This document shows positions 9,056-30,994 of a DNA stretch of 64,000 bases, piece after piece. The position numbers and the translations under genes are program-made. Below the pieces are notes generated by a model. The model saw only the letters and a list, made by a program, of their open reading frames with translations. It did not search any database and had not been told where the DNA came from. Position 1 is the first letter of the stretch. Every line of letters begins with the position of its first letter. Source of the stretch: Brytella acorum (GTDB lineage: Bacteria > Pseudomonadota > Alphaproteobacteria > Acetobacterales > Acetobacteraceae); NCBI RefSeq assembly GCF_029309905.1, contig NZ_JARBJP010000002.1, positions 1-64,000 on the forward strand, given 5' to 3'.

Positions 9056-9985
9056 TTACGTCCCCGCGAGACCGTCCAGCGCGGTGAGGACATGCGCCGC
9101 CATCGCCGCGCGGACCTCTTTCGTCGCCGAGCCGCGATGGGCCTGTAGAACGACGTTCTCCAACCCGAGCAGCGCCTCGGGCACCTGGGGTTCATGGGCG
9201 AAAACATCCAGCCCCGCGCCGGCCAGACGCCCGTTCTCCAGTGCGTCCACCAGTTCCGGCTCGTCCACCACGCTCCCACGCGCGACATTGACCAGATAGC
9301 CCTGCGGCCCGATCGCGTCGATCACCGTCCGGTTCACCAGCCCGTTCGTGGCCGCCCCGCCGGGCAGGGCGAGCACCAGCACGTCGCACCAGCGCGCGAG
9401 GGTCACGATATCGCTGTGATAGGTGTACGAACTATCCGGCTTCTCGCGACGGGTATGATAGGCGATCTGCATTCCGAAGGCCGCGCCGCGTCGCGCGATG
9501 GCCTCGCCGATCGCCCCCAGCCCCACGATGCCGAGCTTCCTGCCCGTGATGGTGTCGCCCAGCGGCGGGGCGCCCTTCAGCCATTTCCCGGCGCGCACGA
9601 AGCGGTCATTGGCCGAAATCCCGCGCATCACATCCAACATCAATCCCATGGCGAGATCGGCCACATCAGCATCCAGCAGCCCGCGCGTGGTGCTGACGGC
9701 GATGCCGCGCCGCTCGGCCTCCCTGAGATCGATCCGGTCCGTTCCCACGCCGTTGACGGCGATCAGCCGCAGGCCGGGAAGGGCCGCCATGATGGCGGGG
9801 TCGAGCCCCGTGCCGCCGCCCGTGACGACCGCGCGGATTCCTTCGGCGACGGGGTGCAGCGCCTCGATCGAGGTGAAGCGGTGCGTGACGTGGCGTCCCT
9901 CCAGTTCCGCCTGCGCCGCGGCGGGAAGCGATTCAATGACCAGAACTTCAGGACCGAGAATGTCAGGCGCGCCGTCGTGAGGCAT
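9056..9985 (-). CDS. D-isomer-specific 2-hydroxyacid dehydrogenase (2-ketoacid reductase)
   Basis: A 309-residue NAD(P)H-dependent reductase. It has the Rossmann motif LGIVGLGAIGEAIA near residue 155, the arginine in VNVARGSVVDE, the Glu in GLDVFAHEP and the catalytic His in VVLQAHRGSAT, i.e. the Arg-Glu-His triad of the family. An Arg two residues after the beta-2 strand (HTRREK) suggests NADPH preference. Relatives include glyoxylate/hydroxypyruvate reductases and, in Gluconobacter, 2-ketogluconate reductase; the latter is plausible here but not proven. It lies 52 bases downstream of the GH31 gene and is the last gene of the leftward transporter-GH31-reductase operon, so its substrate may derive from that glycoside. 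Confidence 0.85.
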   Translation of the reverse strand: MPHDGAPDILGPEVLVIESLPAAAQAELEGRHVTHRFTSIEALHPVAEGIRAVVTGGGTGLDPAIMAALPGLRLIAVNGVGTDRIDLREAERRGIAVSTTRGLLDADVADLAMGLMLDVMRGISANDRFVRAGKWLKGAPPLGDTITGRKLGIVGLGAIGEAIARRGAAFGMQIAYHTRREKPDSSYTYHSDIVTLARWCDVLVLALPGGAATNGLVNRTVIDAIGPQGYLVNVARGSVVDEPELVDALENGRLAGAGLDVFAHEPQVPEALLGLENVVLQAHRGSATKEVRAAMAAHVLTALDGLAGT

Positions 9986-10037
9986 GGGATGTGTCTTTCG
10001 TCAGATCGTGAAAAGCAGGGATGCGAGGCCGGAACCG

Positions 10038-12431
10038 TCAGGTGGCTGATTCGAGACGTAGGGTCAGCCAGCCATCGGCCGAAACGGTCGCCGTGGGTAC
10101 GTCGTTGACGGTGACGGATCGGGTTTCGCCCGGCGGGATCGCCACCTGCGGCAGTTCCGCCCCGCCATCAATCATTTCGATCCCGATCCGCAGGGTGTTC
10201 CCATCCGCCGTGACCGTGCCCTGGCAGGCAGGCCCGTCCTCGACGGGGCGCGCACGTTCGTCATAATGCACCCAGGGGACGGTACCGTTCCCGACGGGCG
10301 GGCAGATCATGAGGCGCGTGGTTTCGGGTGTGACGCCGAAGCCCGTCTTCCCCGCCGCCAGCGCCACCACGGCACCGCTGCGCACCAGCATCACGGGCGG
10401 GTCCGCAAGGGTGCATTTCACGCGCGCGCGACCGGCAGCATAGGCCTGCCCGGTGAAAAGATGCGTCCAGGTCCCATCTCCGGGGAGATTGACCTCAACT
10501 TCCTCCTGCCCCGGTTCGGCAATGATGGCCACCAGAACATCCGGTCCGAGCATGTAGGTATCCTGCTCCTGCCATGCTTCGGGCTGGCGGGGGAACATCG
10601 TCCAGACCGGACGCAGCATCGGTTCGTAATGTTGATGCGAGGCGACGGCGAGGTCGAACAGGAACGGTTCGAGACGCTGGCGCAGGGCCATCAGGCGGGT
10701 GATCTCGGGCAGGACCTCGGGATGCATCCAGGGTTCGCTGACGGCGCCCGCCGCGTTCCAGCTATGGATGCTGAAGCGCGGCAACGTGATTCCCGCCTGC
10801 ACCCAGCGCACGAGAAGCTCCGGCCCCGGCGACGGTCCATAAAAGCCGCCGATGTCGTGACCCGTGTTGGAGACGCCCGAAAGCGCCAGGCTCAGGCCCA
10901 TCCTGGCGTTGTAGCGGATGGTTTTCCAGGCGGTGTAATTGTCCCCGCTCCAGGTCTGTGCGTAGCGCTGCATCCCGGCCATGCCGGAGCGTGTGACGAC
11001 ATAGGGTCGCTTGTCCGGCCAGCGGGCCATCTGGGCGGCGCGCGAGGCCCGCATCATCAGCAGCGGCTGGAGGGAAAGAGCATAGGCCGCAGGCCCCGGC
11101 TGGCCGAAATAATCGAACCGCGCGCGCGGATCCCACAGGCCGTATTCGTTGTTGTCGTTCCACGTCGAAAGAATGCCGTAATCGAGCAGGTTCGCCGTCA
11201 GCCCCTCCCGCCACCAGACCGCGGCCTTCGGGTTCGTGAAATCGATGAAGCTGCCCACCTCGTCCCAGAACTGGGCCTCGACGGGGTTGCCCTGCGCGTC
11301 ATTGACGAAGCACCCCCCCGCGGCGACTTCGTCGTAGCGCGGATGCGAGCGCAGGAGGGCCGGCTTGATGTTGGGCACCAGTTCGATGCCCGCATCGCGG
11401 TAGGCGGTGATGAACGCGGCGGGATCGGGGAACTTGTCACGGTTCCAGTTGAACACGTAGCGCTTGTCGCCGATCGAGGTGTAGCCCGAGGAGAGATGAA
11501 ACGAGCTGCATCCGATGTCGTAACGTCGCAGCTTCTCGACGAAGGTCATCATCTGGTCGTAGGCGTCCGGCGCATCGGTATAGGTCATCGTCGAGCCGGA
11601 ATAGCCAAGCGACCAGGCGGGCATCAGCGCGGGCCGTCCCGTGAGCCAGGTGAAACGCTTGACGACCGCGAGCGCATCCGGCCCCGCGATCACGTACAGG
11701 TCGATGTCGCGCGCATCCTCGCTGACGAAATAGCGGTAATTGCCGTGATAATTGTCGATCTCGCAGCCGAGATCGACGCTCGCATCCGCCATCGTGTCGT
11801 AGAACATGCCAAAGCAGTGCCGCGCCTGATCGGCCGCGAGAATGAAGGGGATCGACTTGTAGAGCGCATCCGTGTGCTCGGCGTCGTACCCCATCGGGTC
11901 CATCATGCGCAGGCGGTGGCGCCGCCCCGCGAGATCCAGCGCGCCGGCGCGTTCGCCCAGGCCGTAATAGCTCTCGCCATCGGCCCGCGCGATATAATGA
12001 TAGGCCCGGGCGTCCCACCAGCCGAAATTATAGGCCTGCGAGGCGCGGTCGGAGAACATTTCCACCCAGTCCTCGCCGATCTTCTGCGCCCAGCAGCATC
12101 GCAGCCCGCGCAGAGTCACCGTCAGGCGCAGCCGCGCCGTCTGGATGATGATCGTGTCCTCCGTGCGATCGAGCGCGAAAGCGGGGAGGGAAAATCCGTT
12201 GGTTGCGTGCCGGTCGCGGCCCGGCTCGGCCACGTCCTCGACGCCGGGTGCGATCGCCCAGCTCGGCGGCAGCGCGGTCGCGCCGCTCGGCATCACGAGC
12301 AGGCGCACGACATCGTCCTCAAGCACGAAGACCTTCGCAAGCGCGCCCGTATCGGAGGTCAGCGCGACCCATCCCGTGCCCTGACCGGACAGCGAGAAGA
12401 CGGGCGGGGCGGAAAGGGTGGCGTTACGCAT
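10038..12431 (-). CDS. GH31 alpha-glycosidase, cytoplasmic
   Basis: Glycoside hydrolase family 31 protein of 797 residues without a signal peptide. The retaining-mechanism nucleophile is the Asp in STWNDNNEYGLWD (about residue 420); the acid/base is the Asp of WSGDNYTAW about 80 residues later. SYYGLGERAG and the Tyr/Trp-rich N-terminal beta-sandwich are also typical. The WNDNNE version differs from WxDMNEP of common alpha-glucosidases and from the alpha-xylosidase and sulfoquinovosidase motifs, so substrate cannot be assigned; an alpha-linked hexosyl or xylosyl unit on an imported oligosaccharide is inferred. The ATG shares one base with the MFS transporter stop (TGATG), arguing for tight coupling of uptake and hydrolysis. 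Confidence 0.88.
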   Translation of the reverse strand: MRNATLSAPPVFSLSGQGTGWVALTSDTGALAKVFVLEDDVVRLLVMPSGATALPPSWAIAPGVEDVAEPGRDRHATNGFSLPAFALDRTEDTIIIQTARLRLTVTLRGLRCCWAQKIGEDWVEMFSDRASQAYNFGWWDARAYHYIARADGESYYGLGERAGALDLAGRRHRLRMMDPMGYDAEHTDALYKSIPFILAADQARHCFGMFYDTMADASVDLGCEIDNYHGNYRYFVSEDARDIDLYVIAGPDALAVVKRFTWLTGRPALMPAWSLGYSGSTMTYTDAPDAYDQMMTFVEKLRRYDIGCSSFHLSSGYTSIGDKRYVFNWNRDKFPDPAAFITAYRDAGIELVPNIKPALLRSHPRYDEVAAGGCFVNDAQGNPVEAQFWDEVGSFIDFTNPKAAVWWREGLTANLLDYGILSTWNDNNEYGLWDPRARFDYFGQPGPAAYALSLQPLLMMRASRAAQMARWPDKRPYVVTRSGMAGMQRYAQTWSGDNYTAWKTIRYNARMGLSLALSGVSNTGHDIGGFYGPSPGPELLVRWVQAGITLPRFSIHSWNAAGAVSEPWMHPEVLPEITRLMALRQRLEPFLFDLAVASHQHYEPMLRPVWTMFPRQPEAWQEQDTYMLGPDVLVAIIAEPGQEEVEVNLPGDGTWTHLFTGQAYAAGRARVKCTLADPPVMLVRSGAVVALAAGKTGFGVTPETTRLMICPPVGNGTVPWVHYDERARPVEDGPACQGTVTADGNTLRIGIEMIDGGAELPQVAIPPGETRSVTVNDVPTATVSADGWLTLRLESAT

Positions 12432-13702
12432 CAGCTATCCTTTGCGGAGGAGGCAATTCCGTAGTGTCGGACCATGAGAAACAGGTACACGGCACCGATG
12501 AGGTCAAAAAGCGACAGGCAGACAAAGAGCGGGCCATACCCGACCGTTTCGGCCAGTTGTCCGATGGCTAGCGAGAAGATGAGACCGCCCAGCCACCCGG
12601 CCTGTCCGACCAGGCCATTGGCCAGGCCGACCTGCTCGTCGGGGAAGAGATCGGCGGTCAGGGTGTTGATGAGCACCGAGATGATCTGATGGGCGAAGCC
12701 GCCGATCGAGAACAGGGCGATCACGGCGACGTGGCCATGGGCGAACATCACTGAACCCGGAGCGATCATGCAGATGGCCCCGAGGAAAATGCCCAGCACG
12801 CGCGACGAAACGAGACTGAGCCCGAACGCACGCATGAAGAACGGCGAGAGATAGCCGCCGAGAATCCCCCCGAGATCGGCGGCGAGGAACGGCAGCCACG
12901 CGAACAGCGCGATGGATTTGATATCGAAGCCGCGCTCGGTAGACAGATAGAGCGGGATCCAGAAACTGAACGTCTGCCAGGCCGGTTCCGCCAGAAAGCG
13001 CGGCACCGCGAGCGTCCAGAAGCGAGGCGAGCGCAGGATGACGCCAGGCCGCATCCGCGACGCCGGAGCCTCGGTCTGGCGCAGGTTGCGGTCGGCCGCG
13101 ATCATGTCGCGCTCGGCCGTCGTGATCGCGGGGTGCTGCGAGGGGCTGCGATAGAGCCAGACCCAGGCCGCCGCCCAGATCAGACCGAGCCCGCCGGTGA
13201 CGATGAAGGCCGCCCGCCATGAAAGATAGAGCGAGACAAACCCGACGAGCGGCGGGGCGAGCAGGGCGCCGAAGGAGGTTCCGGCGTTGAAATACCCCGT
13301 CGCGATCGAGCGTTCCCGGCGTGGGAACCACGACGCGATCGCCTTCATGCCAGCAGGGATGGCGGCCGCCTCCGTCGCGCCCAGCATGGCGCGGAACACC
13401 GCCAGCGCCATCCAGCTTGCCGCCACGGCATGCAGCATGTTGGAGACCGACCAGCCGACGGCGAACAATGCGAATCCTAACCGCAGCCCGATGTAGTCCA
13501 CCAGCCCGCCGCAGACCGGCTGCATCAACGTATAGGCGCCCTGGAACGCACCGACGATGTAGCTGTATTGCTGCGTCGTGATGTGAAGCGTCGTCTTCAG
13601 CGTGGGTGCGAGCACGCCGAGGGAGTTCCGGGCGAGATAGTTGAGAATCGTCCCACAACTGATCAACGCGACGATGTACCATCGCAAACCACGCACCGTC
13701 AT
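12431..13702 (-). CDS. MFS transporter, anion:cation symporter (hexuronate-type) family
   Basis: A 423-residue integral membrane protein with about 12 hydrophobic segments. It opens with RGLRWYIVALISCGTILNYLARNSLGVLAP, the start typical of the ACS subfamily (ExuT, glucarate and galactonate carriers). Loop 2-3 has GLVDYIGLRLGF, and FPRRERSIATGYFNAG precedes helix 5. ACS carriers move organic anions with protons. Here it heads an operon with GH31 and a hydroxyacid reductase and faces the uxaC/uxuB cluster, so a uronate or uronate-containing glycoside is the likely cargo. The family evidence is sequence-based; the cargo is inference from neighbours. Confidence 0.87.
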   Translation of the reverse strand: MTVRGLRWYIVALISCGTILNYLARNSLGVLAPTLKTTLHITTQQYSYIVGAFQGAYTLMQPVCGGLVDYIGLRLGFALFAVGWSVSNMLHAVAASWMALAVFRAMLGATEAAAIPAGMKAIASWFPRRERSIATGYFNAGTSFGALLAPPLVGFVSLYLSWRAAFIVTGGLGLIWAAAWVWLYRSPSQHPAITTAERDMIAADRNLRQTEAPASRMRPGVILRSPRFWTLAVPRFLAEPAWQTFSFWIPLYLSTERGFDIKSIALFAWLPFLAADLGGILGGYLSPFFMRAFGLSLVSSRVLGIFLGAICMIAPGSVMFAHGHVAVIALFSIGGFAHQIISVLINTLTADLFPDEQVGLANGLVGQAGWLGGLIFSLAIGQLAETVGYGPLFVCLSLFDLIGAVYLFLMVRHYGIASSAKDS

Positions 13703-14093
13703 GCTTACCCATATCCTTCTGGCCGAAACCCGGGAGAGGGTCCTGTGCTTCCCAGGCCCGGAGTGGTGCGCCTTGCGATGGCTTCGCGAGGATGGAAGTC
13801 AATTTGGTATATTAATGTCAGGCAGCGATCCAGAGGAGGGCTTGGCGCGCTATGACAATAAATATCCCAGATAATAGTGACTTTATAAGAATCCTCACGC
13901 TCGCTCAGCGCCTGTTGGGCAGGAGATAGCATTCTTATGTGATATATCCATTCACATATATGTTATTTATCACCCAAAAGTCATCTTCTGTCTCGCAAAC
14001 GATTTTTCTCTCGCTATGAATGCCTCTTCGGGCGAACGAAGCCGATATTCCGGCGAATCCAGCAGAGAAATTTCGCCCACTGGGATAACCGAT
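13703..14093 (+). other. Intergenic control region of the carbohydrate divergon
   Basis: This 391-base gap separates the leftward MFS-GH31-reductase operon from the rightward porin-hydroxyacid oxidase-uxaC-uxuB operon and should hold both promoters. The section 13850-13980 is markedly AT-rich compared with the flanks and contains the palindrome listed separately. A reading frame from 14016 continues into the porin but lacks a ribosome site, so I treat it as untranslated. Confidence 0.6.
13936..13958. promoter_or_regulatory. Candidate operator, TATGTGA-N9-TCACATA
   Basis: Perfect 7-bp inverted repeat (TATGTGA 13936-13942, TCACATA 13952-13958) with a nine-base spacer in the AT-rich middle of the divergent promoter region. 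The half-site recalls TGTGA of CRP sites, but the spacer is nine rather than six. It could equally bind the FadR-type regulator encoded at 19837. Confidence 0.5.
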
Positions 14094-15575
14094 ATGACTT
14101 TCTCACTGAGCCTCAGAGTAAAACTGAAATACGATAAGGCGGAGTTTTCGGCTTTCAGGTATATTAAAATACCCTATTTCGCGAAGCGTTGGTCGGCCGC
14201 TGGTATCGCGCTGTCCCTGACGACCGCCTTCCCCGGCACGGTGCATGCGCAATCGACGCTGACCAGCAATATGCCGCCCACGATTACGAGGCCGGTTCTT
14301 TCCGCGACCTCCAGCCTCGTGAATCCGATGCAGATCGGCAGCGATGACGGCGCGACCACGGGCTGCCATTATTTCGACCGCTACCGCACGCGGGGCTCGG
14401 AAGTGCCAGCCATCACCACCTGTGACGACATCGCGCCGGAGTGGGGCGGCCTGCGCCAGATTCTGGTCGATCATGGCGTGCTGATCACGGGCGTGCTGGC
14501 TGGAAGCCTGACCTACGACATGCTGGGCCATGACGCGCATACGCCGCACTATGTCGGCCAGAACCTCACCTACAATTCCGCGCCGGGCTTCACGCTGACC
14601 TTTGACCTCAACCGCACGCACCTGCCTTTCTGGAAGGACGCGCAGTTCACGATGACCGGCTATCTGTGGCGCAACAACTATCCTGGCCGCGGCCCGAACG
14701 CCTTCGGCATGTCCCAGTTCTCGATCGTTCAGCCGTTTTTCACGCCGCGTATCGCCATCCAGTATGGCTATACGGAGTTCTCCAACCAGTTCTACGGCAC
14801 GAATTACGGTACCAGCACGGCCGCCTCCGCACTTGGCCCGAGCAGCGTCATCCCCGTCGAGGTCGGCATGTCGAACTTCTTTGCCACGCCGAGCTTCGAT
14901 GTGCGCTTCTTCTCCAAATCCATGCGCTTCTACGATCACTTCGGCGTGGCCCGGAGCGTAAGTCCGCTCGGCGCGCGTGGGGACGTGCAGGCTGGCATGG
15001 GACTGGAATGGCACGTGCCCAACACGGGTGCGCTGTTCATCGACGAGGTGGGCTATCGCATCCGCCCCTCCGTCGATCACCATATGATGTGGCTGCGTGG
15101 CGGCGCGATCTACAACAACACCAGCTACTTCAACTACAGCCAGAATAAATATACGCGCGGCAATCAGGCCTTTTACGCGGCGGCCGACTACCAGATCATG
15201 CAGTTCGACCGCAAAATTCCCTCACGCGGCATGTTCATGAACTTCAAGGCCGATGCGGCTCCCCCGGATCGCAACGTGTTCGCGCGCGATATCAGCGGCA
15301 CGATCTACTTCGTCGGCCCGTTTGCGCGCCGCGCCAAGGATTCGGCTTCCCTCGGCTTCACGTTCAACAAGCTCAGCAACTTCGCCTATGCCTACCGCAT
15401 CGCCCGTGGTGCCACGGCCGCGCACAGTTCCAATACGACGACCGCTTCCTACGCGTTGCATGTCATGCGCGGGCTCTATTTCACCAACTCGCTGAGCTAC
15501 GTGCATAATCCCGCGCCAACTCCCAAGCTGCATGACGCGTTTCTCATCACATCCGGTCTGACCCTGTCGCTCTGA
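14094..15575 (+). CDS. OprB-like carbohydrate-selective porin
   Basis: About 493 residues. A long, basic N-terminal region is followed by a hydrophobic stretch (AAGIALSLTTAFPGTVHAQS), a signal peptide with AHA cleavage site. The mature part begins with a disordered segment. It then has WGGLRQILVDHGVLITGVLAGSLTYD, the OprB-type opening in which a helix packs in the pore, and ends in a barrel with a terminal hydrophobic residue (TSGLTLSL). OprB porins pass mono- and oligosaccharides across the outer membrane. The start is uncertain: ATG at 14094 has GGGA about ten bases upstream, and the leader before the hydrophobic core is unusually long (around 35 residues). First gene of the rightward operon. 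Confidence 0.82.
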   Translation: MTFSLSLRVKLKYDKAEFSAFRYIKIPYFAKRWSAAGIALSLTTAFPGTVHAQSTLTSNMPPTITRPVLSATSSLVNPMQIGSDDGATTGCHYFDRYRTRGSEVPAITTCDDIAPEWGGLRQILVDHGVLITGVLAGSLTYDMLGHDAHTPHYVGQNLTYNSAPGFTLTFDLNRTHLPFWKDAQFTMTGYLWRNNYPGRGPNAFGMSQFSIVQPFFTPRIAIQYGYTEFSNQFYGTNYGTSTAASALGPSSVIPVEVGMSNFFATPSFDVRFFSKSMRFYDHFGVARSVSPLGARGDVQAGMGLEWHVPNTGALFIDEVGYRIRPSVDHHMMWLRGGAIYNNTSYFNYSQNKYTRGNQAFYAAADYQIMQFDRKIPSRGMFMNFKADAAPPDRNVFARDISGTIYFVGPFARRAKDSASLGFTFNKLSNFAYAYRIARGATAAHSSNTTTASYALHVMRGLYFTNSLSYVHNPAPTPKLHDAFLITSGLTLSL

Positions 15576-15641
15576 AGGCGCCGCAAGCACCTTCCTCGGG
15601 CCCGATTTCGTCCATTCACGCGAACACATTCAAGGACCACC

Positions 15642-16826
15642 ATGACCAAGAGACGCCTGCGAAGCGCCGGGAGCATCCTCAACCTCGAAGACTTCGCCGC
15701 CCTGGCAAGGCGGCGTCTTCCCAGAGCGTTCGCGGCCTATGTATCCGGAGGGGCGGGCGACGGTCTCTCCCTTGCCGCCGCCCGCGAGGCGTTTGCGCGC
15801 TGGTGCTTCGTGCCGCGTGTCCTGCGCGGCACGCACGACCGTTCGTCCCGTGCGCGCATCCTGGGACGCGATTATGCCATGCCCATCGGGATTTCCGCCC
15901 TCGGCGCCAGCGCGGTGCTGGCCTATGACGGCGATATCGCCATGGCGCGCGCCGCCTTCGAGGCTGGCGTGCCCTATCAGTTGAGCGCCAATTCCATCAC
16001 CCCGCTGGAAGAGGTGATCGCCGTCAACCCGCATGCCTGGTTCGCGGCCTATTTCCCGGCCGACCGCTCGACGATCGACGGCGTGCTCGCCCGCTTGGCG
16101 CGGGCCGGATTCGGAACCCTCGTGATCACAGCGGATGTGCCGGTGGCCGCCTTCCGCGAGCCCGAGACCCGCGCGGGCTACGCGATGCCCTTCCGCTTCG
16201 CCCCCCGCATCCTGATGGATATCGTCCTTTCGCCCCGCTGGTTCGTCGGCACCGCCCTGCGGACCTTTTTCAGGAGAGGGGTGCCGCATATCGCCAATAT
16301 CGCCGCCACACGCGGCCCCCATGTCTTCACGCGCGACATCGGCCAGATCGGCGGCGCGGACCGGTTCACCTGGGAAGATATCCGCCATATCCGCGCGCAG
16401 TGGAAAGGCAGGCTCGTGCTCAAGGGCATCCTCTCGCCCGAAGATGCCCGACAGGCCGCCCAGGACGGGGTCGATGCCGTGATCGTCTCCAGCCATGGCG
16501 GCCGACTGTCGGACTGCATGATCGCGCCGCTTGACGCCCTGCCCGAAATTCGCGCCGCCTGCCCGGATCTGACGATCCTGCTCGATGGCGGCGTGCGGCG
16601 TGCGGGCGACGCGCTCAAGGCGATCGCCCTGGGGGCGGACGGTGTGTTCATCGGCCGCCCGTTCTTCTTCGCCGCGGCAGCAGGCGGGGAGGCGGGAATC
16701 GGACATGCCCTGCGTCTGCTCGCCCGGGAGATGGACCGGGAGCTCGCCTTCCTCGGCCTGCTGACACCGCTGGAAGCGCGCGACAATCGTCTCCGACGAC
16801 GCGAAACCCCGGGGACGGCGCCCTAG
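15642..16826 (+). CDS. FMN-dependent alpha-hydroxyacid oxidase/dehydrogenase, divergent
   Basis: A 394-residue TIM-barrel flavoprotein of the LldD/glycolate oxidase family, which oxidises L-2-hydroxyacids to 2-oxoacids. Recognised blocks are YVSGGAGDG, FVPRVLRG, ITADVPVAAFRE, VLKGILSPEDA, SSHGGRLSD with the catalytic His and substrate Arg, and LLDGGVRRAGDALKAIALGA plus IGRP for FMN phosphate. Two usual signatures are altered: WFQLY is WFAAY, and SNHGGRQLD is SSHGGRLSD, so substrate or acceptor use may differ from lactate or glycolate. It lies between the porin (66-base gap) and uxaC, implying a role in the same sugar-acid pathway. Electron acceptor (O2, quinone or cytochrome) is not visible. 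Confidence 0.8.
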   Translation: MTKRRLRSAGSILNLEDFAALARRRLPRAFAAYVSGGAGDGLSLAAAREAFARWCFVPRVLRGTHDRSSRARILGRDYAMPIGISALGASAVLAYDGDIAMARAAFEAGVPYQLSANSITPLEEVIAVNPHAWFAAYFPADRSTIDGVLARLARAGFGTLVITADVPVAAFREPETRAGYAMPFRFAPRILMDIVLSPRWFVGTALRTFFRRGVPHIANIAATRGPHVFTRDIGQIGGADRFTWEDIRHIRAQWKGRLVLKGILSPEDARQAAQDGVDAVIVSSHGGRLSDCMIAPLDALPEIRAACPDLTILLDGGVRRAGDALKAIALGADGVFIGRPFFFAAAAGGEAGIGHALRLLAREMDRELAFLGLLTPLEARDNRLRRRETPGTAP

Positions 16827-16891
16827 CCGCCGAAAACTCCGAACCCGCCTCCCAACTCCCGATGAATCCCGATGAATATGGAATTCGCGCC

Positions 16892-18301
16892 ATGCCCACC
16901 CTGACACTGCACCCCGACCGGCTCTTTCCGCCCGATGAAGCGACACGCAGCATCGCAAGGCGGCTCCATGACAGGATCGCCAGTCTGCCGATCATCAGTC
17001 CCCACGGGCATACGGACCCGGCCTGGTTCGCCGGGAACGAGGCTTTCGAAAACCCCGCCGAACTTCTGATCATCCCCGATCACTATGTGTTCCGCATGCT
17101 GATGAGCGCGGGCGTGCCGCTGGAATCGCTGGGCATCCCGCCCGCAGGCGGACGCTCCACCGCCGATCCGCGCGCGGTCTGGCAAATTTTCGCCGCGCAT
17201 TATCATCTCTTCCGCGGTACTCCGAGCCGGTTGTGGCTCGACTGGGTCTTTTATCACGTCTTCGGCCTGCGCAGCCGCCTGGATGCCGCAACGGCCGACC
17301 ACTATTACGACGTGATCGACAGCCGGCTGAAAACGCCGGAGTTCCGCCCGCGCGCCCTTTTCGAGCAATTCAACATCGAGGTGCTGACGACGACGGAAGG
17401 ACCTCTCGATACGCTCGAACACCACGCCAGCATCCGCCGGAGCGGCTGGGGCGGTCGCATCCTTACCGCCTACCGCCCCGACAACGTCACCAACCCGGAA
17501 AGCCCCGGTTTCCAGGAGGCCATCCGCGCCTTCGGCGCCGTGACCGGCCAGGACGTCACCACGTTCGCGGGTTACATGCGCGCCCACCGCGCCCGCCGCG
17601 CCTTCTTCCGCACGATGGGCGCGACCTCGACCGACCATGGTCACCCCGATCCGTTCACGACCTCGCTGCCCGCCGAGGCGGTCGAAGCGCTCTACAGGCG
17701 CGTCACCACCGGCACCGTCACGCCGGAGGATGCCCGCCTCTTCCGTGGCCACATGCTGACGGAAATGGCCGGGCTTTCGGCCGAAGACGGCATGGTCATG
17801 CAGCTTCACACGGGTGTCTTCCGCAATCATAACCCCTCGCTCTTCGCCCGTTTCGGGGCGGACAAGGGGGCGGATATCCCGGTCGCGGTCGATTTCGTCC
17901 ATGCGCTCAAGCCGCTGCTCGACCAGTGGGGCAACGACCCGCGCCTGACACTGATCCTCTTCACGCTCGACGAGACCACCTTCAGCCGCGAACTGGCCCC
18001 TCTCGCGGGTCATTATCCCGCTCTGCGCCTCGGTCCGCCCTGGTGGTTCCTCGACAGTCCCGACGGCATGTCGCGCTTTCGCGCCGCCGCCACGGAAACA
18101 GCGGGTTTCTACAACACCGTCGGCTTCAATGACGACACGCGGGCCTTCCTCTCCATTCCCGCCCGCCATGACGTCGCCCGCCGGGCGGATGCCGCCTATC
18201 TCGCCCGCCTCGTCGCCGAACATCGGATCGACGAGGATGAGGCTGAAGAGATCGCTCACGACCTGACCTACGGGCTGGTCAAGAAGGCCTACCAGCTATG
18301 A
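16892..18301 (+). CDS. uxaC: Glucuronate isomerase (uronate isomerase)
   Basis: Amidohydrolase-fold enzyme that converts D-glucuronate to D-fructuronate (and D-galacturonate to D-tagaturonate). Key pieces: PIISPHGHTDPAWF with the metal-binding HxH, EVLTTTEGPLDTLEHH, MQLHTGVFRNHN and PPWWFLDSPDGM. I used the ATG at 16892 (469 residues, close to E. coli UxaC at 470) because GGAAT sits eight bases upstream; an ATG at 16862 has no ribosome site. The stop overlaps the next start by four bases (ATGA), which ties it to the reductase gene. Confidence 0.93.
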   Translation: MPTLTLHPDRLFPPDEATRSIARRLHDRIASLPIISPHGHTDPAWFAGNEAFENPAELLIIPDHYVFRMLMSAGVPLESLGIPPAGGRSTADPRAVWQIFAAHYHLFRGTPSRLWLDWVFYHVFGLRSRLDAATADHYYDVIDSRLKTPEFRPRALFEQFNIEVLTTTEGPLDTLEHHASIRRSGWGGRILTAYRPDNVTNPESPGFQEAIRAFGAVTGQDVTTFAGYMRAHRARRAFFRTMGATSTDHGHPDPFTTSLPAEAVEALYRRVTTGTVTPEDARLFRGHMLTEMAGLSAEDGMVMQLHTGVFRNHNPSLFARFGADKGADIPVAVDFVHALKPLLDQWGNDPRLTLILFTLDETTFSRELAPLAGHYPALRLGPPWWFLDSPDGMSRFRAAATETAGFYNTVGFNDDTRAFLSIPARHDVARRADAAYLARLVAEHRIDEDEAEEIAHDLTYGLVKKAYQL

Positions 18302-19749
18302 CACGTCTCTCCGCCGCCACGCTCGGCACGCTGCCCGCCACCTTCGAAACCCCGCGATACGACCGCGCCCAGGTGAAGACCGGCGTCGTGCATCTCGGGC
18401 TGGGGGCGTTTCACCGCGCCCATCAGGCCACCTTCTTCGACGACGCGCTGGCGGCGGGCGATCCGCGCTGGGGCATCCTTGGCGTCTCCAACCGTTCGGC
18501 GGAGCCGGGCCGGAACCTCGCCGCGCAGGACGGGCTCTATACCGTCGTCGCGCGCGACGGGGATGCCATCGCCCCGCGCGTCATCGGCGCCAGTCGCGGC
18601 GTCATGGTGCTCGCCGATGGGGCCGCGCCGGTTATCGCTGCGATCGCCGCCCCCGAGACGCATATCGTCACCCTCACCATCACCGAGAAGGGCTATCGTC
18701 TGCGCCCCGGTGGCGGCAGCCTCGATCCCGACGATCCCGGCATCCGCCACGACATCGCCAGTCCCCAGACCCCCGAGACCATCCCCGGTCTGCTCGTAGC
18801 CGCGCTGGCCCGTCGCAAGGCGACGGTCGCAACCGGCCTCAACGTCATCTCCTGCGACAACCTGCCCGCCAACGGCGCCCGCCTGCGCGAAGCCGTCCTG
18901 ACGATGGCACGGGAAGTCGATTCCGCCCTTCATGACTGGATCGCCGCACAGATCGCCTTTCCCTCGACGATGGTGGACCGCATCGTCCCCGCCACGACGC
19001 AGGATGACATCGCGACGTTCGCCGATCAGACGGGGGTGACGGATACCGCGATGGTCAAGACCGAATCCTTCCGTCAGTGGGTGATCGAATCCGTTCTGAC
19101 CGCCGACGTGCCGGATTTCGCGCGCTTTGGCGTCACCCTCACGCGGGACGTGACGGCCTGGGAACTGACCAAGCTGCGGATGCTGAATGCCGCCCATTCC
19201 ACCATGGCCTTCTGCGGGCTGCTCGCGGGCTTCACCTTCGTGCATGAGGTGATCGCAACCGGGCCGGGCCGCCGGATCGTCGAGGACTTGTGGGACGAAA
19301 ATCAAACCACCCTCCGCGCCACCGAAGGGCTGGATGTGGCGGCCTACCGCGCGGCCACGCTCGCCCGTTTCGCCAACACGGCGCTGCATCACAAGCTGAT
19401 CCAGATCGCTGCCGACGGCTCGCAGAAAGTGCCGCCGCGCATCATCGCCCCGCTGGGCGAGCGGCTCGCGGGCGGCATGGCCTCGCCCGTTCTGCTGCGC
19501 GCGCTGGCGGCCTGGCTCGTCTGCCTGACCGACGGTCCCGGGGCCGCCCGGCCGATCATCCTGCAGGACCCGCGCGCCGAGGCGCTGCGCGGCCTGATGC
19601 ATGGCGAGACCCGCCAGCAGGTCGGCGCGCTGGTCAGCCGGAGCGGCCTGTTCGAGGCTCCCGTTTTCGGCGGAGATGCGTTTCAGTCCGCCCTTGCGTC
19701 AGAGATCGACCGCCTGCGCCGCGACCCTGCCGCCGCCCTGAGCCTGTGA
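18298..19749 (+). CDS. uxuB: Fructuronate reductase-like, mannitol dehydrogenase family
   Basis: A 483-residue NAD-dependent polyol/uronate dehydrogenase. N-terminal Rossmann part: VVHLGLGAFHRAHQA and WGILGVSNRS; central SCDNLPANG and FPSTMVDRI; C-terminal catalytic KLRMLNAAHS with Lys, Asn and His. Family members reduce fructuronate to mannonate (UxuB), tagaturonate (UxaB) or fructose to mannitol. The four-base overlap with uxaC makes fructuronate the most likely substrate. No mannonate dehydratase or KDG kinase is in the window, so the rest of the route must be elsewhere. Confidence 0.85.
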   Translation: MTRLSAATLGTLPATFETPRYDRAQVKTGVVHLGLGAFHRAHQATFFDDALAAGDPRWGILGVSNRSAEPGRNLAAQDGLYTVVARDGDAIAPRVIGASRGVMVLADGAAPVIAAIAAPETHIVTLTITEKGYRLRPGGGSLDPDDPGIRHDIASPQTPETIPGLLVAALARRKATVATGLNVISCDNLPANGARLREAVLTMAREVDSALHDWIAAQIAFPSTMVDRIVPATTQDDIATFADQTGVTDTAMVKTESFRQWVIESVLTADVPDFARFGVTLTRDVTAWELTKLRMLNAAHSTMAFCGLLAGFTFVHEVIATGPGRRIVEDLWDENQTTLRATEGLDVAAYRAATLARFANTALHHKLIQIAADGSQKVPPRIIAPLGERLAGGMASPVLLRALAAWLVCLTDGPGAARPIILQDPRAEALRGLMHGETRQQVGALVSRSGLFEAPVFGGDAFQSALASEIDRLRRDPAAALSL

Positions 19750-19836
19750 CGGAGCCTCTCCGCGCGTCTTCCTGACGTCTTCGCTCTTGCCCGCCAGCCT
19801 AAAACGAAGACAATGGGCGGGTGGAGGAGGGCTGGC

Positions 19837-20523
19837 ATGGACGTCGTCGCGGAAGAACCGGTTTCGGAGATCAGCCGCAGGGAAGGAAGCGCCGAGCTTC
19901 TGTCCGAGCGCGTCTATGCGCGTCTCAAGCGCGAGATCGTATTCGGCCGCCTGCCGCCCAACGCCAAGATCGTCGAGCGCGAGATCTGCGAGCAGTTCGC
20001 CGTCAGCCGCACGCCTCTGCGCGAGGCCCTGCTGCGGCTGGCCGCTGATGGCCTGGTCATCGTCAAGCCGCAATCGGGAACGCTCGTGGCACCGATCACG
20101 CTGAGCCGCGTCATGGCCGCGCAGTTCATTCGCGAAAGGCTGGAATGCGGCCTCGTCCGCCGCGTGACCGACTGCTGGAATCGCGCGGGCCATGCCACGC
20201 TGCTCGAAAACATCGCCGCCCAGAAGGTGGCCGCCGAGTGCAATGATTTCGAGGGTTTCCATGACCTTGACGAGGCTTTTCACGGTCACATGTCGATCAT
20301 CGCCGGTCTGCCCGATGTCTGGACGACGATCGCCGCCTCCAAGCCCCATCTCGACCGTATCCGCATCGAGAGCCTGGACCGGCGCAAACACATCCACGAC
20401 CTGATCCTCGATCACTCCGACATCGTCGCCGCCCTGGCCGACCGCGACGTCTCCAGGGCCAAGCGCCGCCTGCGCGCCCATCTGAGGCAGGTCCTGCGTT
20501 CGCTCGAATACCTTAATCAGTAG
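19837..20523 (+). CDS. GntR-family (FadR/FCD) transcriptional regulator
   Basis: A 228-residue repressor. Winged helix at residues 15-85 (LKREIVFGRLPPNAKIVEREICEQFAVSRTPLREAL). The helical FCD ligand domain has conserved metal ligands: Asp and His in DLDEAFH, His in DLILDHSDIV and His in RRLRAHL. ATG chosen at 19837 because a strong AGGAGG lies six bases upstream. Located just after uxuB on the same strand, it resembles UxuR/ExuR-type regulators of uronate genes and probably controls the 9-20.5 kb island; a fructuronate- or glucuronate-like inducer is inference. Confidence 0.88.
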   Translation: MDVVAEEPVSEISRREGSAELLSERVYARLKREIVFGRLPPNAKIVEREICEQFAVSRTPLREALLRLAADGLVIVKPQSGTLVAPITLSRVMAAQFIRERLECGLVRRVTDCWNRAGHATLLENIAAQKVAAECNDFEGFHDLDEAFHGHMSIIAGLPDVWTTIAASKPHLDRIRIESLDRRKHIHDLILDHSDIVAALADRDVSRAKRRLRAHLRQVLRSLEYLNQ

Positions 20524-20605: not shown

Positions 20606-22246
20606 TTACGCTTCGGGTTTCATGGCTTCGAACAGGCGGGCGATCGCTTCCGCGCCGGGATCGGGGACATTCTCCAGATGATCGGCTGACACATAGGACG
20701 CACGTCCCGCGCCAGCCTTCCGCATGCCGGCCGTCCTGTCAGCACCGTCACGGGCCGCGCGCACGACCGTGTCCCATGCCTCGTCGTCATCGAGCGCTCT
20801 GACGGCTGGAATCAGGGCATCGAGCATGGTCCGGTCGCCTTCGCGCGCGCCAGCGTATGCCTGCATCGCCTCTACCCCTTCGAGCAGCGCCGCCTGCCAG
20901 CGATCCTGCTCGCTTCGGCTGGCCGCCGCGAAGAAAATGGACAACAAAACACCGCTCGATCCGCCCGCGTGACGGGAGAGAAGGCGTCCCACGGTCTGCA
21001 TCAGGGCTTTCGGGTCGGAAAGGGGCAGGCGATCGATCGAATCCCGGATCACCCTGGCGGTTTCCGCGAATGTCGAGCCGGCATCGCCATCGCCGATCCT
21101 TGCATCCAGGGCGTTCAGCGCTTCCTCGTTTTCGAGCAGCGTCGCGGCCCCCCGTTCCACAACCTTTCTGAGACGTGCATTCGCCGACGGCGTCTCCGAG
21201 AAGATTTCGGGCATGGAGGGCGTCGCGATGAGCGCTGGCGCCCGCCATGCCGCGATCCCGGTCCAGGCTTTCGGATCGACAGGCGCGCGCAGCGCTTCCT
21301 CGACATGCGAATCGAGAGGAATGAGCGACAGCGAAAAACCGTACATGTCGAGCGCGGTCAGAAAGTGCGATGGACCGGCGATGAACTCGATGCGTGAGGA
21401 CAGGGTGGTTTTCGAAAAGGCTTCCACCAGCACGGCCATCTCAAGGATCGAGGTCGAACCGAGATTGTTGAACAGCAGGGCATAACGGGCGTCGTCTTTC
21501 GGTAACGTGGCCTCCAGCGCGGAAGCCGCGAGTTCGACCAGTCCATCCGCCGGAGCCATCGCGATACGTTTCGCGCCAGGTTCGCCATGGATGCCCAGGC
21601 CAAGTTCGGCCTCATGATCGTCGAGGCGGGTCTCGAAACGGTCATCGTAGGTATAGCAATCGCTCAGCGAGAGACCGATCGACCGGATTTTGGCGGCGGT
21701 CTGTCTGGCGAAGGCGGCCACTTTTTCCAGAGATTGCCCTTCTTCCGCGAAGTGGCCCGCGATCTTGTGCACCAGAACCGTGCCCGCGACGCCGCGAGCC
21801 TCGCGGTGGTCGGGGAGGGAGATATCGTCGGCGACGACGACCATCTCGACCTTCAGCCCCATATCCCGCGCCTGTTCGGCTGCGAGGCCGAAGTTCAGGC
21901 GGTCGCCCGTGTAGTTCTTGACGATGAGGAGACAGCCGGCGTCGCCGGTCACGGCGATGATGCCCGCAAGGATGGCATCGATCCCCGGAGACGCGAAAAG
22001 CGATCCGCAGATCGCTCCCGTCAGCATACCCTTGCCGATAAATCCCGCATGCGCCGGCTCATGGCCGGAGCCGCCGCCCGAAAGAATGGCGACGCGACCT
22101 GAGTTCCTGTCCCAGTCGCGTCGGAGGAGGACGCGGATGTCCGGGTAGCCGTCAAGGCGGCACAGTCCAGCGCCAGCCGGAGAACGCAGGAATCCGTCGA
22201 GCGCTTCGGTGACGAGCGTTTCGCGGCTGTTGAGAAACCGTTTCAT
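20606..22246 (-). CDS. ATP-dependent dihydroxyacetone kinase (DhaK-DhaL fusion)
   Basis: Phosphorylates dihydroxyacetone to DHAP in the cytoplasm. Single chain of 546 residues. The N-terminal DhaK domain has ILSGGGSGHEPAHAGFIGKGML and the substrate-binding His in ELGLGIHGEPG. The C-terminal DhaL domain has the Asp cluster LNALDARIGDGDAGST, SSGVLLSIFFAA and TMLDALIPA, the ATP/Mg site. Fusion of both domains marks the ATP-dependent rather than the PTS-dependent type. ATG at 22246 has AGGAG about eleven bases upstream. It fits with the DHA-producing sldAB in this window, although 32 kb away. It converges on the GntR gene. Confidence 0.95.
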   Translation of the reverse strand: MKRFLNSRETLVTEALDGFLRSPAGAGLCRLDGYPDIRVLLRRDWDRNSGRVAILSGGGSGHEPAHAGFIGKGMLTGAICGSLFASPGIDAILAGIIAVTGDAGCLLIVKNYTGDRLNFGLAAEQARDMGLKVEMVVVADDISLPDHREARGVAGTVLVHKIAGHFAEEGQSLEKVAAFARQTAAKIRSIGLSLSDCYTYDDRFETRLDDHEAELGLGIHGEPGAKRIAMAPADGLVELAASALEATLPKDDARYALLFNNLGSTSILEMAVLVEAFSKTTLSSRIEFIAGPSHFLTALDMYGFSLSLIPLDSHVEEALRAPVDPKAWTGIAAWRAPALIATPSMPEIFSETPSANARLRKVVERGAATLLENEEALNALDARIGDGDAGSTFAETARVIRDSIDRLPLSDPKALMQTVGRLLSRHAGGSSGVLLSIFFAAASRSEQDRWQAALLEGVEAMQAYAGAREGDRTMLDALIPAVRALDDDEAWDTVVRAARDGADRTAGMRKAGAGRASYVSADHLENVPDPGAEAIARLFEAMKPEA

Positions 22247-22435
22247 ACTATGCCGTTCTCCTCCCGACTGCATCAGGGATGCGATAGCGCTCCTTCAGCG
22301 GGGAAAATGCAAGAGCGGGGCGGTCCATCGGGACGCCCGACAGACGGAACCCGTAGGGGCGCCGCGTCCTGCCTGCCGGAGTCAGGGTTTGAGGTCCGAA
22401 ATAAAGCGATGTGGAAGTCCCCTTGGGGATACGAA

Positions 22436-28544: not shown

Positions 28545-29804
28545 TCAGTCGTTGTAGCGGTCGAGCGAAAGATCAAGCGCGGGAATGTCGGTGCGACGGC
28601 CACTGATGCGATCGGCAAGAAGTTTTCCCGAGCCGCAGGCCATCGTCCAGCCCAGCGTGCCATGACCGGTATTGAGCCACAGATTGCCATACCGCCCTGA
28701 TGGTCCGACGATGGGCGTGCCATCAGGCGTGCAGGGCCGCAGACCGGTCCAGTAGCGTGCCTTCGTGAGGTCGGCTCCGCCGAACATCTCGGAAAATGAC
28801 AGTTCCAGCGTTTCTCTGCGGTCCGGGCTGAGGCGCAGACGCCAGCCGGTCAGCTCCGCCGTACCGCCAATGCGGATGCGGTCTCCGAGGCGCGTGATGG
28901 CCACCTTGTAGGTTTCATCATTGACCGTCGAAACCGGCGCGCGCTTTTCGTCGGTCAGCGGAGCCGTCAATGAATAGCCCTTCACGGGATAGATCGGCAG
29001 TTCCAGCTCGATCGGCTTGAGCATGCGCGGGGAATAGCTCCCCAGAGCCAGCACGTAGGCGTCAGCCGTCAGGCGACCTTCGCTCGTGCGCACGCCATAG
29101 ATGTTTTCGGCGGCTGCCTCAACGGCCTCGATCTGTGTGCGGAAGCGGAATTTCACGCCTTTTGCCGCCGCCATCTCGGCGAGACGACAGGTGAAGAGGA
29201 AGCAGTCGCCCGCCTCATCGCCTGGAAGGCGAAGGCCGCCCGCCAGCCGTCCTCGTGCCGCTGTCAGGCCCGGCTCGTATTTCAGAATACCATCGACGTC
29301 GAGCAGTTCGTAGGGAACATCACTTTCAGCCAGGAGACGCATGTCCTCATGCGCGGCGGCAACCTGCTTTTCCGTCCGGAAAAGCTGGATCAAGCCTTTC
29401 TGACTGCCGTCATACTCGATGCCCGTCTGCGCACGCAGGGCTGTCAGGCAATCGCGGCTATACTCCGCGATGCGCAGCATGCGGCCCTTGTTGACGTCAT
29501 AGGCATGCGACGAGCAGTTTTCCAGCAGCCGCGTCATGAAGCGGATCATCGGCACGCTGACATAAGCCGGGCGCACGACGAGCGGGCTGTGTTTGCTCAT
29601 CAGCCACTTCATGGCCTTCAGCGGCAATCCCGGCATCGCCCAGGGGGTCGAATAGCCCGGGGAAACCTGTCCTGCGTTCGCGTAGGAAGTTTCGAGTGCC
29701 ACGCCGGGCTGGCGGTCGATGACTTCGACCTCGTGGCCCTGCTCGGCCAGGTACCAAGCCGTGGTGACGCCGATGACTCCGGCGCCCAGAACAATGACTT
29801 TCAT
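28545..29804 (-). CDS. dadA: D-amino acid dehydrogenase small subunit
   Basis: FAD flavoprotein of 419 residues that oxidises D-alanine and other D-amino acids to 2-oxoacids, passing electrons to the membrane quinone pool. N-terminal dinucleotide fold MKVIVLGAGVIGVTTAWYL, the acidic end of strand 2 (VEVIDRQPG), and C-terminal YWTGLRPCTPDGTPIVGP and LNTGHGTLGWTMACGSG. Length is as in E. coli DadA (432). It overlaps the alr stop by four bases (ATGA). With alr it forms the classic L-Ala to D-Ala to pyruvate route. Confidence 0.95.
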   Translation of the reverse strand: MKVIVLGAGVIGVTTAWYLAEQGHEVEVIDRQPGVALETSYANAGQVSPGYSTPWAMPGLPLKAMKWLMSKHSPLVVRPAYVSVPMIRFMTRLLENCSSHAYDVNKGRMLRIAEYSRDCLTALRAQTGIEYDGSQKGLIQLFRTEKQVAAAHEDMRLLAESDVPYELLDVDGILKYEPGLTAARGRLAGGLRLPGDEAGDCFLFTCRLAEMAAAKGVKFRFRTQIEAVEAAAENIYGVRTSEGRLTADAYVLALGSYSPRMLKPIELELPIYPVKGYSLTAPLTDEKRAPVSTVNDETYKVAITRLGDRIRIGGTAELTGWRLRLSPDRRETLELSFSEMFGGADLTKARYWTGLRPCTPDGTPIVGPSGRYGNLWLNTGHGTLGWTMACGSGKLLADRISGRRTDIPALDLSLDRYND

Positions 29805-30916
29805 TTCACTTTCTCGATGTAATCGCGGTGATAGCGGTGACTCAGTCCGGTCAGCAGTTCGTAGCCGATCATATCCAGATCTCTGGCTACCGCATCGAGC
29901 GGACGAAGAGGGCCGATGAACTCGAAGGCGGTTCCAGGTGCAAGCGGCAGATCGCCCAGCGCGGTGATATCCAGCGCGAGGCAGTCCATCGATACGCGAC
30001 CGATGACCGGAAGCAGGATGTCCGGCTTTTCGGGTAATATGGCAAAAGTCCTGCCACCGGCGGCGCGGGGCACGCCGTCCGCGTAGCCGGCCGCGAGGGT
30101 CGCGATTCGCGATGGGCGGCTGGCCACGAACCGGGCGCTGTATCCGACCGCCGCACCGGTTTCGATACTTCGTTCCTGAATCATGCGCAGCTGTAAGGTG
30201 ACGACCGGCAGCATGGGAGAGGGGGCGCCGGGCGTCGGGTTCCCGCCATAAAGGGCGTAACCCGGTCGTACGAGGTCGAAATGGTAATCGGGACCCAGAA
30301 AAATTCCGCTGGAGGCGGCGAGGCTTGAAAGGGGCGCCGGAACGGCTTTTCGGCGGGCAAGGAATGTTTCCCGCTGGCTGCGGTTCTGACCGTGCTGAGG
30401 CTCATCAGCGCAGGCCAGGTGGCTCATGACCAGCTGAATATCGAGTGCTTCGAGGTCATCCCCGGCGTCCGTGAGGGCCCGATCATCCAGTCCGAAGCGA
30501 TACATTCCGGAATCGATCTGAATGACGCATGGTGAGCGCGAGCCGGTTCTGCGAGACAATGCGGCCCAATGAGCGATCTGTTCCGGACTGTTGAGAACCG
30601 GCGTGATGCCAGCCGCCTTCAAGTCCGCCTCGCATCCCTGAAAAGGACCATTCAGCTGAAAGACCTGCGCATCGGCTGCGACCAGCGGCCTGAGCGCGAT
30701 CGCTTCATCGACGGTGGCCACGAAGAAATGACGGCATCCCGCTTCGTAGAGAACAGGGGCGACGCGTGCGACCCCGAGACCATAGGCATCGGCCTTGACG
30801 GCCGCGCCTACGCGGGTTCGGTCGCCGACCTTTCCGCGGAGCCGTCGGTAGTTCCCATCGATCGCGCCCAGATCGATGGTCAGCCATCCTCCGGCACCGG
30901 AGTGGGTGAGATTCAT
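29801..30916 (-). CDS. alr: Alanine racemase
   Basis: PLP enzyme interconverting L- and D-alanine. The catalytic Lys lies in TRVGAAVKADAYGLG near residue 40 and the catalytic Tyr in VGYSARF near residue 250; the C-terminal beta domain has GRVSMDCLALD. I start at the ATG at 30916 (371 residues); the frame continues to a TTG at 30976, and neither has a strong ribosome site. Because dadA follows with a four-base overlap, this is probably the catabolic (DadX-like) racemase, though it may be the only one. Confidence 0.93.
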   Translation of the reverse strand: MNLTHSGAGGWLTIDLGAIDGNYRRLRGKVGDRTRVGAAVKADAYGLGVARVAPVLYEAGCRHFFVATVDEAIALRPLVAADAQVFQLNGPFQGCEADLKAAGITPVLNSPEQIAHWAALSRRTGSRSPCVIQIDSGMYRFGLDDRALTDAGDDLEALDIQLVMSHLACADEPQHGQNRSQRETFLARRKAVPAPLSSLAASSGIFLGPDYHFDLVRPGYALYGGNPTPGAPSPMLPVVTLQLRMIQERSIETGAAVGYSARFVASRPSRIATLAAGYADGVPRAAGGRTFAILPEKPDILLPVIGRVSMDCLALDITALGDLPLAPGTAFEFIGPLRPLDAVARDLDMIGYELLTGLSHRYHRDYIEKVK

Positions 30917-30994
30917 GGGCGGTGTGGCGTTCGTATCATTGTCGGGGACAATAGGCTGAAGCGCGTGGCGTCTCAACCCGTTCTGCGGCTGTAT

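Follow-up and report, generated by a model that had tools for sequence, protein, structure and literature searches.

Two bacterial glucuronate pathways were given as known in the introduction to a 2016 publication (PMC4870679). The isomerase (Ashwell) pathway of Escherichia coli (UxaC-UxuB-UxuA) shares with the locus described here UxaC, a UxuB-like reductase, a regulator of the FadR/GntR type and an anion-type MFS carrier; it differs in that our genome lacks both mannonate dehydratase and KDPG aldolase, and in that two hydroxyacid oxidoreductases are encoded in the locus. The α-glucuronidases of families GH67, GH115 and GH4 release α-linked glucuronate, which is the reaction predicted below for a GH31 enzyme, but these families are unrelated to it and none is represented in the locus. 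To our knowledge no α-glucuronidase belongs to GH31, and a literature search returned nothing relevant on GH31 α-glucuronidases or on glucuronosylglycerol catabolism. The operon of the sulfoquinovosidase YihQ offers a closer likeness, with a GH31 catalytic domain, an anionic C6 sugar and, as the natural substrate of YihQ, an α-linked glyceryl glycoside; the GH31 studied here is, however, only 25% identical to YihQ over 454 residues, has a different nucleophile motif, and is accompanied by uronate rather than sulfoquinovose genes, none of the latter being detected in the locus with Pfam and NCBIfam models.

Two further systems bear on the later steps. In the assimilation of 2-ketogluconate by Gluconobacter (GOX0417, GLF_0478 and GLF_1777), reductases of comparable size (33-kDa) convert 2-ketogluconate to gluconate, and porin and transporter genes lie near that of GLF_1777, as they do in our locus; there the 2-ketogluconate comes from outside the cytoplasm, whereas we propose that it is made inside from mannonate (PMC11837542). 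Inversion of an aldonate at C2 via a 2-keto acid has been proposed for the GluC-containing glucuronate pathway of Aspergillus niger, but this converts L-gulonate to L-idonate, with other enzymes and in a eukaryote (PMC4870679).

The locus lies in the window, the whole stretch of 64,000 nucleotides of Brytella acorum DNA which was analysed. Genes were assigned from the ORF table together with Pfam and NCBIfam scans, and these bear out the preliminary description of eight genes on two divergent arms, with its positions, overlaps and WNDNNE motif (Table 1). The minus arm consists of the 2-hydroxyacid dehydrogenase, GH31 and MFS genes, and the plus arm of those for OprB, FMN_dh, UxaC, the UxuB-like reductase and the GntR/FCD regulator. 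Base 12431 is common to the MFS and GH31 genes, and uxaC overlaps the uxuB-like gene by four bases.

Table 1. Genes and candidate operator of the divergent locus, with positions in the window
Feature	Position	Strand	Basis
2-Hydroxyacid dehydrogenase, D-isomer-specific; proposed NADPH-dependent 2-keto-D-gluconate reductase	9056-9985	-	PF02826/PF00389
GH31 glycosidase, proposed α-glucuronidase; D426 nucleophile, D497 acid/base	10038-12431	-	PF01055/PF13802/PF21365
MFS importer, anion:cation symporter type; proposed carrier of intact glucuronide	12431-13702	-	TIGR00893, score under cut-off
Imperfect dyad TATGTGATATATCCATTCACATA in divergent promoter; candidate operator	13936-13958		Inverted-repeat scan and A. 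methanolica alignment
OprB-family carbohydrate-selective outer-membrane porin	14016-15575	+	PF04966, 4e-18
FMN-dependent (S)-2-hydroxyacid dehydrogenase; proposed respiratory D-mannonate 2-dehydrogenase	15642-16826	+	PF01070
uxaC, glucuronate isomerase	16862-18301	+	NF002794, 558 bits (cut-off 387)
uxuB-like fructuronate reductase, polyol long-chain dehydrogenase	18298-19749	+	Best NCBIfam match, under cut-off
GntR-family FCD (FadR-type) regulator	19813-20523	+	PF00392/PF07729

All eight genes are found in identical order in Acidomonas methanolica DSM 5432 (G037), with protein identities of 91-96%, which argues that the arrangement in the window is not due to chance. The divergent promoter region is also retained, including the dyad, in which the single substitution falls in the spacer; we regard this repeat as a candidate operator. 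The GntR/FCD protein, 93% conserved in A. methanolica, likely regulates both arms. Beyond it, and abutting its gene in convergent orientation, is a single-chain Dak1-Dak2 dihydroxyacetone kinase (20606-22273, minus strand), and farther along (28545-30976, minus strand) a dadA-like FAD-dependent oxidoreductase gene and an alanine-racemase-like gene overlap by four bases, probably as a D-alanine catabolism pair.

UxaC is 63% identical to its counterpart from a GH31 locus of Novosphingobium. The UxuB-like protein finds its best NCBIfam family in fructuronate reductase, with 306 bits against a cut-off of 603, and is 37% identical to E. coli UxuB and 43% to the Novosphingobium counterpart. The MFS carriers score best with an anion:cation symporter family; for the window protein this model is TIGR00893, of galactonate/hexuronate-type carriers, with a score under its cut-off.

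Homologues of the window GH31, with 42-63% identity, were recovered across the alpha-, beta- and gammaproteobacteria, on plasmids as well as in genomes, and almost all adjoin either a TRAP transporter or an MFS gene related to that of the window; MFS genes of 45-66% identity directly adjoin GH31 in these relatives. Uronate genes (uxaC, uxuA, uxuB or manD) were located within approximately 10 kb in 17 of 40 MFS/TRAP-type loci and in none of 14 with ABC (MalK-type) importers (Fisher p 0.002, or 0.03 with near-copies collapsed by hand), p-values which serve only as a guide since every locus was fetched by similarity to the window GH31 rather than at random, near-copies share history, and within the ABC group only part of the loci had their importer type checked. 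A maximum-likelihood tree splits off the ABC group at 100/98 and scatters the uronate-associated members over the remainder. The latter span the alpha- and gammaproteobacteria in many independent lineages and include Novosphingobium (uxuB-uxaC-fadR//manD-MFS-GH31), Azospirillum B510 (with uxuA), Pantoea soli (uxuR-uxaC-uxuB-uxuA), Paracoccus, Ruegeria, Roseinatronobacter and Nitratireductor (TRAP, GH2 and GH31, in most with uxuB-uxaC-uxuA), and further genomes. GH31 in a uronate setting had been presented as unfamiliar; the enzyme does fall in no characterised PDB clade, but the pairing is widespread and not peculiar to this genome. Counting against a glucuronidase are the GH31 loci of Enterobacteriaceae, Burkholderiales and others, which have no uronate genes nearby.

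As to the protein itself, the N-terminal, TIM-barrel and C-terminal domains of GH31 are all present, the catalytic residues align, and no signal peptide was noticed on inspection by eye. The PDB search revealed no close solved relative: the best match is glucosidase II alpha [9.6e-57], and the MalA and YicI types are also distant. Nor is it close to the neutral-sugar enzymes by NCBIfam score (MalA, 266 bits against a cut-off of 800; α-xylosidase, 225 against 606), a comparison made with PDB and NCBIfam only and without CAZy subfamilies. We found no assayed enzyme of this clade in the literature. In the alignment the -1 subsite Asp of neutral α-glucosidases (LDIEH in GANAB) is replaced by Ser314, which is invariant across the MFS/TRAP clade and is Gly in the ABC sister clade; Y277, G279-T281, Y284, T285 and H556 likewise separate the two groups. 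Lys356, a candidate carboxylate ligand, was rejected as a clade marker because the ABC clade shares it without exception, and thus no residue yet proves a uronate in the -1 site. The sulfonate-binding pair of YihQ, R301 and W304, is not reproduced, the Arg being kept (R324) and the Trp position occupied by Phe327. An AlphaFold2 model built from two sequences had a pLDDT of 28 and was unusable. The sister clade occurs in Roseomonas and other Acetobacteraceae (L018-L028, L153, L154, L173), beside MalK/UgpC-type ABC sugar importers where these were checked, and shares Lys356.

The anion-type MFS carriers, the TRAP systems and the GH2 enzymes point to an anionic glycoside as the substrate. The TRAP binding protein of Ruegeria matches the solved uronate binders 4n91 and 4mhf, both of which bind glucuronate (PMC7660916), and the GH2 often found in the GH31 loci scores best, below cut-off, as a β-glucuronidase. 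The preliminary description had supposed that an α-linked disaccharide containing a uronate is imported intact and cleaved inside. Judging from the recurrence of MFS/TRAP-GH31 beside uxaC, uxuA, uxuB or manD in many lineages, import and intracellular cleavage of what would be a uronate-bearing α-glycoside are well supported; that it is a disaccharide is not established. From this genomic context we predict that the GH31 is an α-glucuronidase. Genes for glycerol kinase and/or glycerol-3-phosphate dehydrogenase (glpK/glpD) recur at the related loci (Novosphingobium, a related genome [L137], Caballeronia and G418), which suggests, by analogy with sulfoquinovosyl-glycerol and YihQ, a glycerol aglycone, such as that of glucuronosyl-glycerol derived from glucuronosyl-diacylglycerol. 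With this recurrence glucuronosyl-glycerol becomes at least as likely as a disaccharide, and is perhaps what the window GH31 acts upon. Of the whole argument the part concerning glycerol is the least secure, since the window locus contains no glycerol kinase or dehydrogenase gene and the neighbouring dihydroxyacetone kinase, considered as a glycerol-processing partner, was dropped because none was seen in the corresponding region of A. methanolica.

The absence of mannonate dehydratase, originally remarked for the window, extends to the whole genome and is joined by that of KDPG aldolase. Searches of the genome, which is 99.8% complete, with positive controls in known genomes, returned no UxuA, no altronate dehydratase (UxaA) and no PF01081 match that would indicate Eda; its only MR_MLE match is enolase, and hence there is no ManD. 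Gluconate kinase (GntK) is present. UxaC occurs in 11 of 250 genomes of the family, and among these UxuA is missing only from G000, G037 and G085. The last, a near-complete genome of the Acetobacteraceae, counts against the route proposed below: its UxaC (L089) adjoins a GntR regulator and has no FMN gene beside it, and the genome has no UxuA. The related GH31 loci often include uxuA or manD, in place of which the window locus has its two oxidoreductases. Scanning named genomes with UxuB yielded four loci: one was that of A. methanolica, and the other three stand in a canonical uronate setting that includes UxuA or ManD.

The FMN enzyme is closest, among solved proteins, to (S)-mandelate dehydrogenase (6bfg), to which its active-site residues and membrane-type segment could be aligned; the catalytic His, Arg, Tyr and Lys are all present on alignment with mandelate dehydrogenase and LldD. 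The D-isomer-specific enzyme has 32% identity to E. coli GhrB, with the catalytic Arg, Glu and His aligned and intact, and 50-60% to Acetobacteraceae homologues, a paralogue in its own genome standing at 60%. Neither gene could be used to trace the pathway in other genomes. The FMN family is found everywhere, and its best relatives beyond this genome and A. methanolica (62%) adjoin ethanolamine ammonia-lyase genes; the 2-hydroxyacid dehydrogenase is equally widespread and was twice found beside amino-acid-type ABC transporters. D-Mannonate has the 2S configuration, the side taken by FMN-dependent L-2-hydroxyacid enzymes, and D-gluconate the 2R configuration which D-2-hydroxyacid dehydrogenases produce, so that the pair could convert mannonate to gluconate via 2-keto-D-gluconate. 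The second of these steps is already known from acetic acid bacteria (PMC11837542). With UxuA, ManD and Eda missing genome-wide, the two enzymes become candidate replacements rather than accessories.

The model which we consider somewhat probable is a glucuronide utilisation locus in which the GH31 releases glucuronate and a dehydratase-free route leads on through gluconate. The OprB porin and the MFS carrier would take in an α-linked glucuronoside, which the cytoplasmic GH31 would split to D-glucuronate and an aglycone, possibly glycerol. UxaC would isomerize D-glucuronate to D-fructuronate, and the UxuB-like enzyme would presumably reduce this to D-mannonate. Since there is neither mannonate dehydratase nor KDPG aldolase, we propose a C2 oxidation of mannonate to 2-keto-D-gluconate by the FMN enzyme of membrane type. 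The D-2-hydroxyacid dehydrogenase would reduce this product to D-gluconate, and GntK could then supply 6-phosphogluconate to the pentose phosphate pathway. The net effect would be an epimerisation of mannonate to gluconate at C2 driven by the respiratory chain. Support for this bypass comes from one lineage (two related genomes), and the substrates assigned to every enzyme after UxaC are our proposals.

The FMN_dh proteins are common, and that most of them act on lactate-like acids (lactate, mandelate, glycolate) counts against the assignment to mannonate. An unrecognised dehydratase elsewhere in the genome might instead handle mannonate, leaving the two oxidoreductases to process an aglycone such as lactate, glycolate or glycerate or to interconvert lactate enantiomers, and the presence in the genome of a second FMN_dh (45%) and of the second 2-hydroxyacid dehydrogenase would agree with this. 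We are doubtful of it, since the UxuA, ManD and UxaA families are all absent from so complete a genome, no Eda is available to finish the KDG route, and in no related locus examined does the oxidoreductase pair stand beside an intact dehydratase.

Other readings concern the sugar. Most GH31 enzymes act on neutral α-glucosides, acetic acid bacteria make acidic exopolysaccharides with Glc-GlcA units, and an anionic disaccharide would equally suit MFS and TRAP carriers; an ordinary α-glucosidase might thus remove glucose or another neutral α-sugar from a disaccharide with a reducing-end uronate, which would then pass to UxaC. The loss of the canonical -1 Asp throughout the clade, and the annotation of glucokinase in none of the loci read, whereas glpK/glpD recur, make this unlikely in our estimation. 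UxaC acts on both uronates, and with uxaC confirmed and the relatives plant-associated one might also imagine a galacturonate locus, in which the reductase forms altronate and the substrate is a pectin-derived α-galacturonide. Against this, altronate dehydratase is absent, the reductase scores higher as a fructuronate reductase (306 bits) than as a tagaturonate reductase (142 bits), and the related loci carry mannonate dehydratases and the β-glucuronidase-like GH2; we judge it highly improbable. Placement of the GH31 in a characterised neutral-sugar clade together with a lack of co-regulation with uxaC, or a gene order conserved in no relative, would have spoken against the preliminary description; with only distant PDB matches and recurrent GH31/uronate neighbourhoods, neither was seen.

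We prefer to treat the window locus as a variant of the uronate utilisation loci from which two predictions may be drawn, α-glucuronidase activity of the GH31 and a dehydratase-free glucuronate route. Should the first hold for the clade, a widespread enzyme would gain a function and a gap in glucuronolipid recycling could be closed. The second would constitute a third bacterial glucuronate pathway, suited to organisms without KDPG aldolase, and the absence of uxuA would then be no proof of inability to use glucuronate. The two together, namely that the proteobacterial GH31 clade comprises α-glucuronidases acting on glucuronosyl-glycerol from glucuronolipids and that mannonate reaches gluconate via 2-keto-D-gluconate with neither mannonate dehydratase nor a KDG/KDPG route, form a speculative combination that is unlikely to be right in every part.

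Members of the GH31 clade were also met in other settings. The Acetobacteraceae genome G189 (L017) has two adjacent MFS-GH31-LacI units in approximately 11 kb, on a contig without uronate genes. In E. coli and Klebsiella the interval from ybiU to ybiT holds a homologous LacI//MFS-GH31 cassette (L158, 7983-10346; L108, L170), and the gene of the E. coli branch is present in 567 of 5426 complete E. coli genomes (~10%). Another version of the GH31, 42% identical to the window protein, is encoded by an E. coli IncI plasmid.
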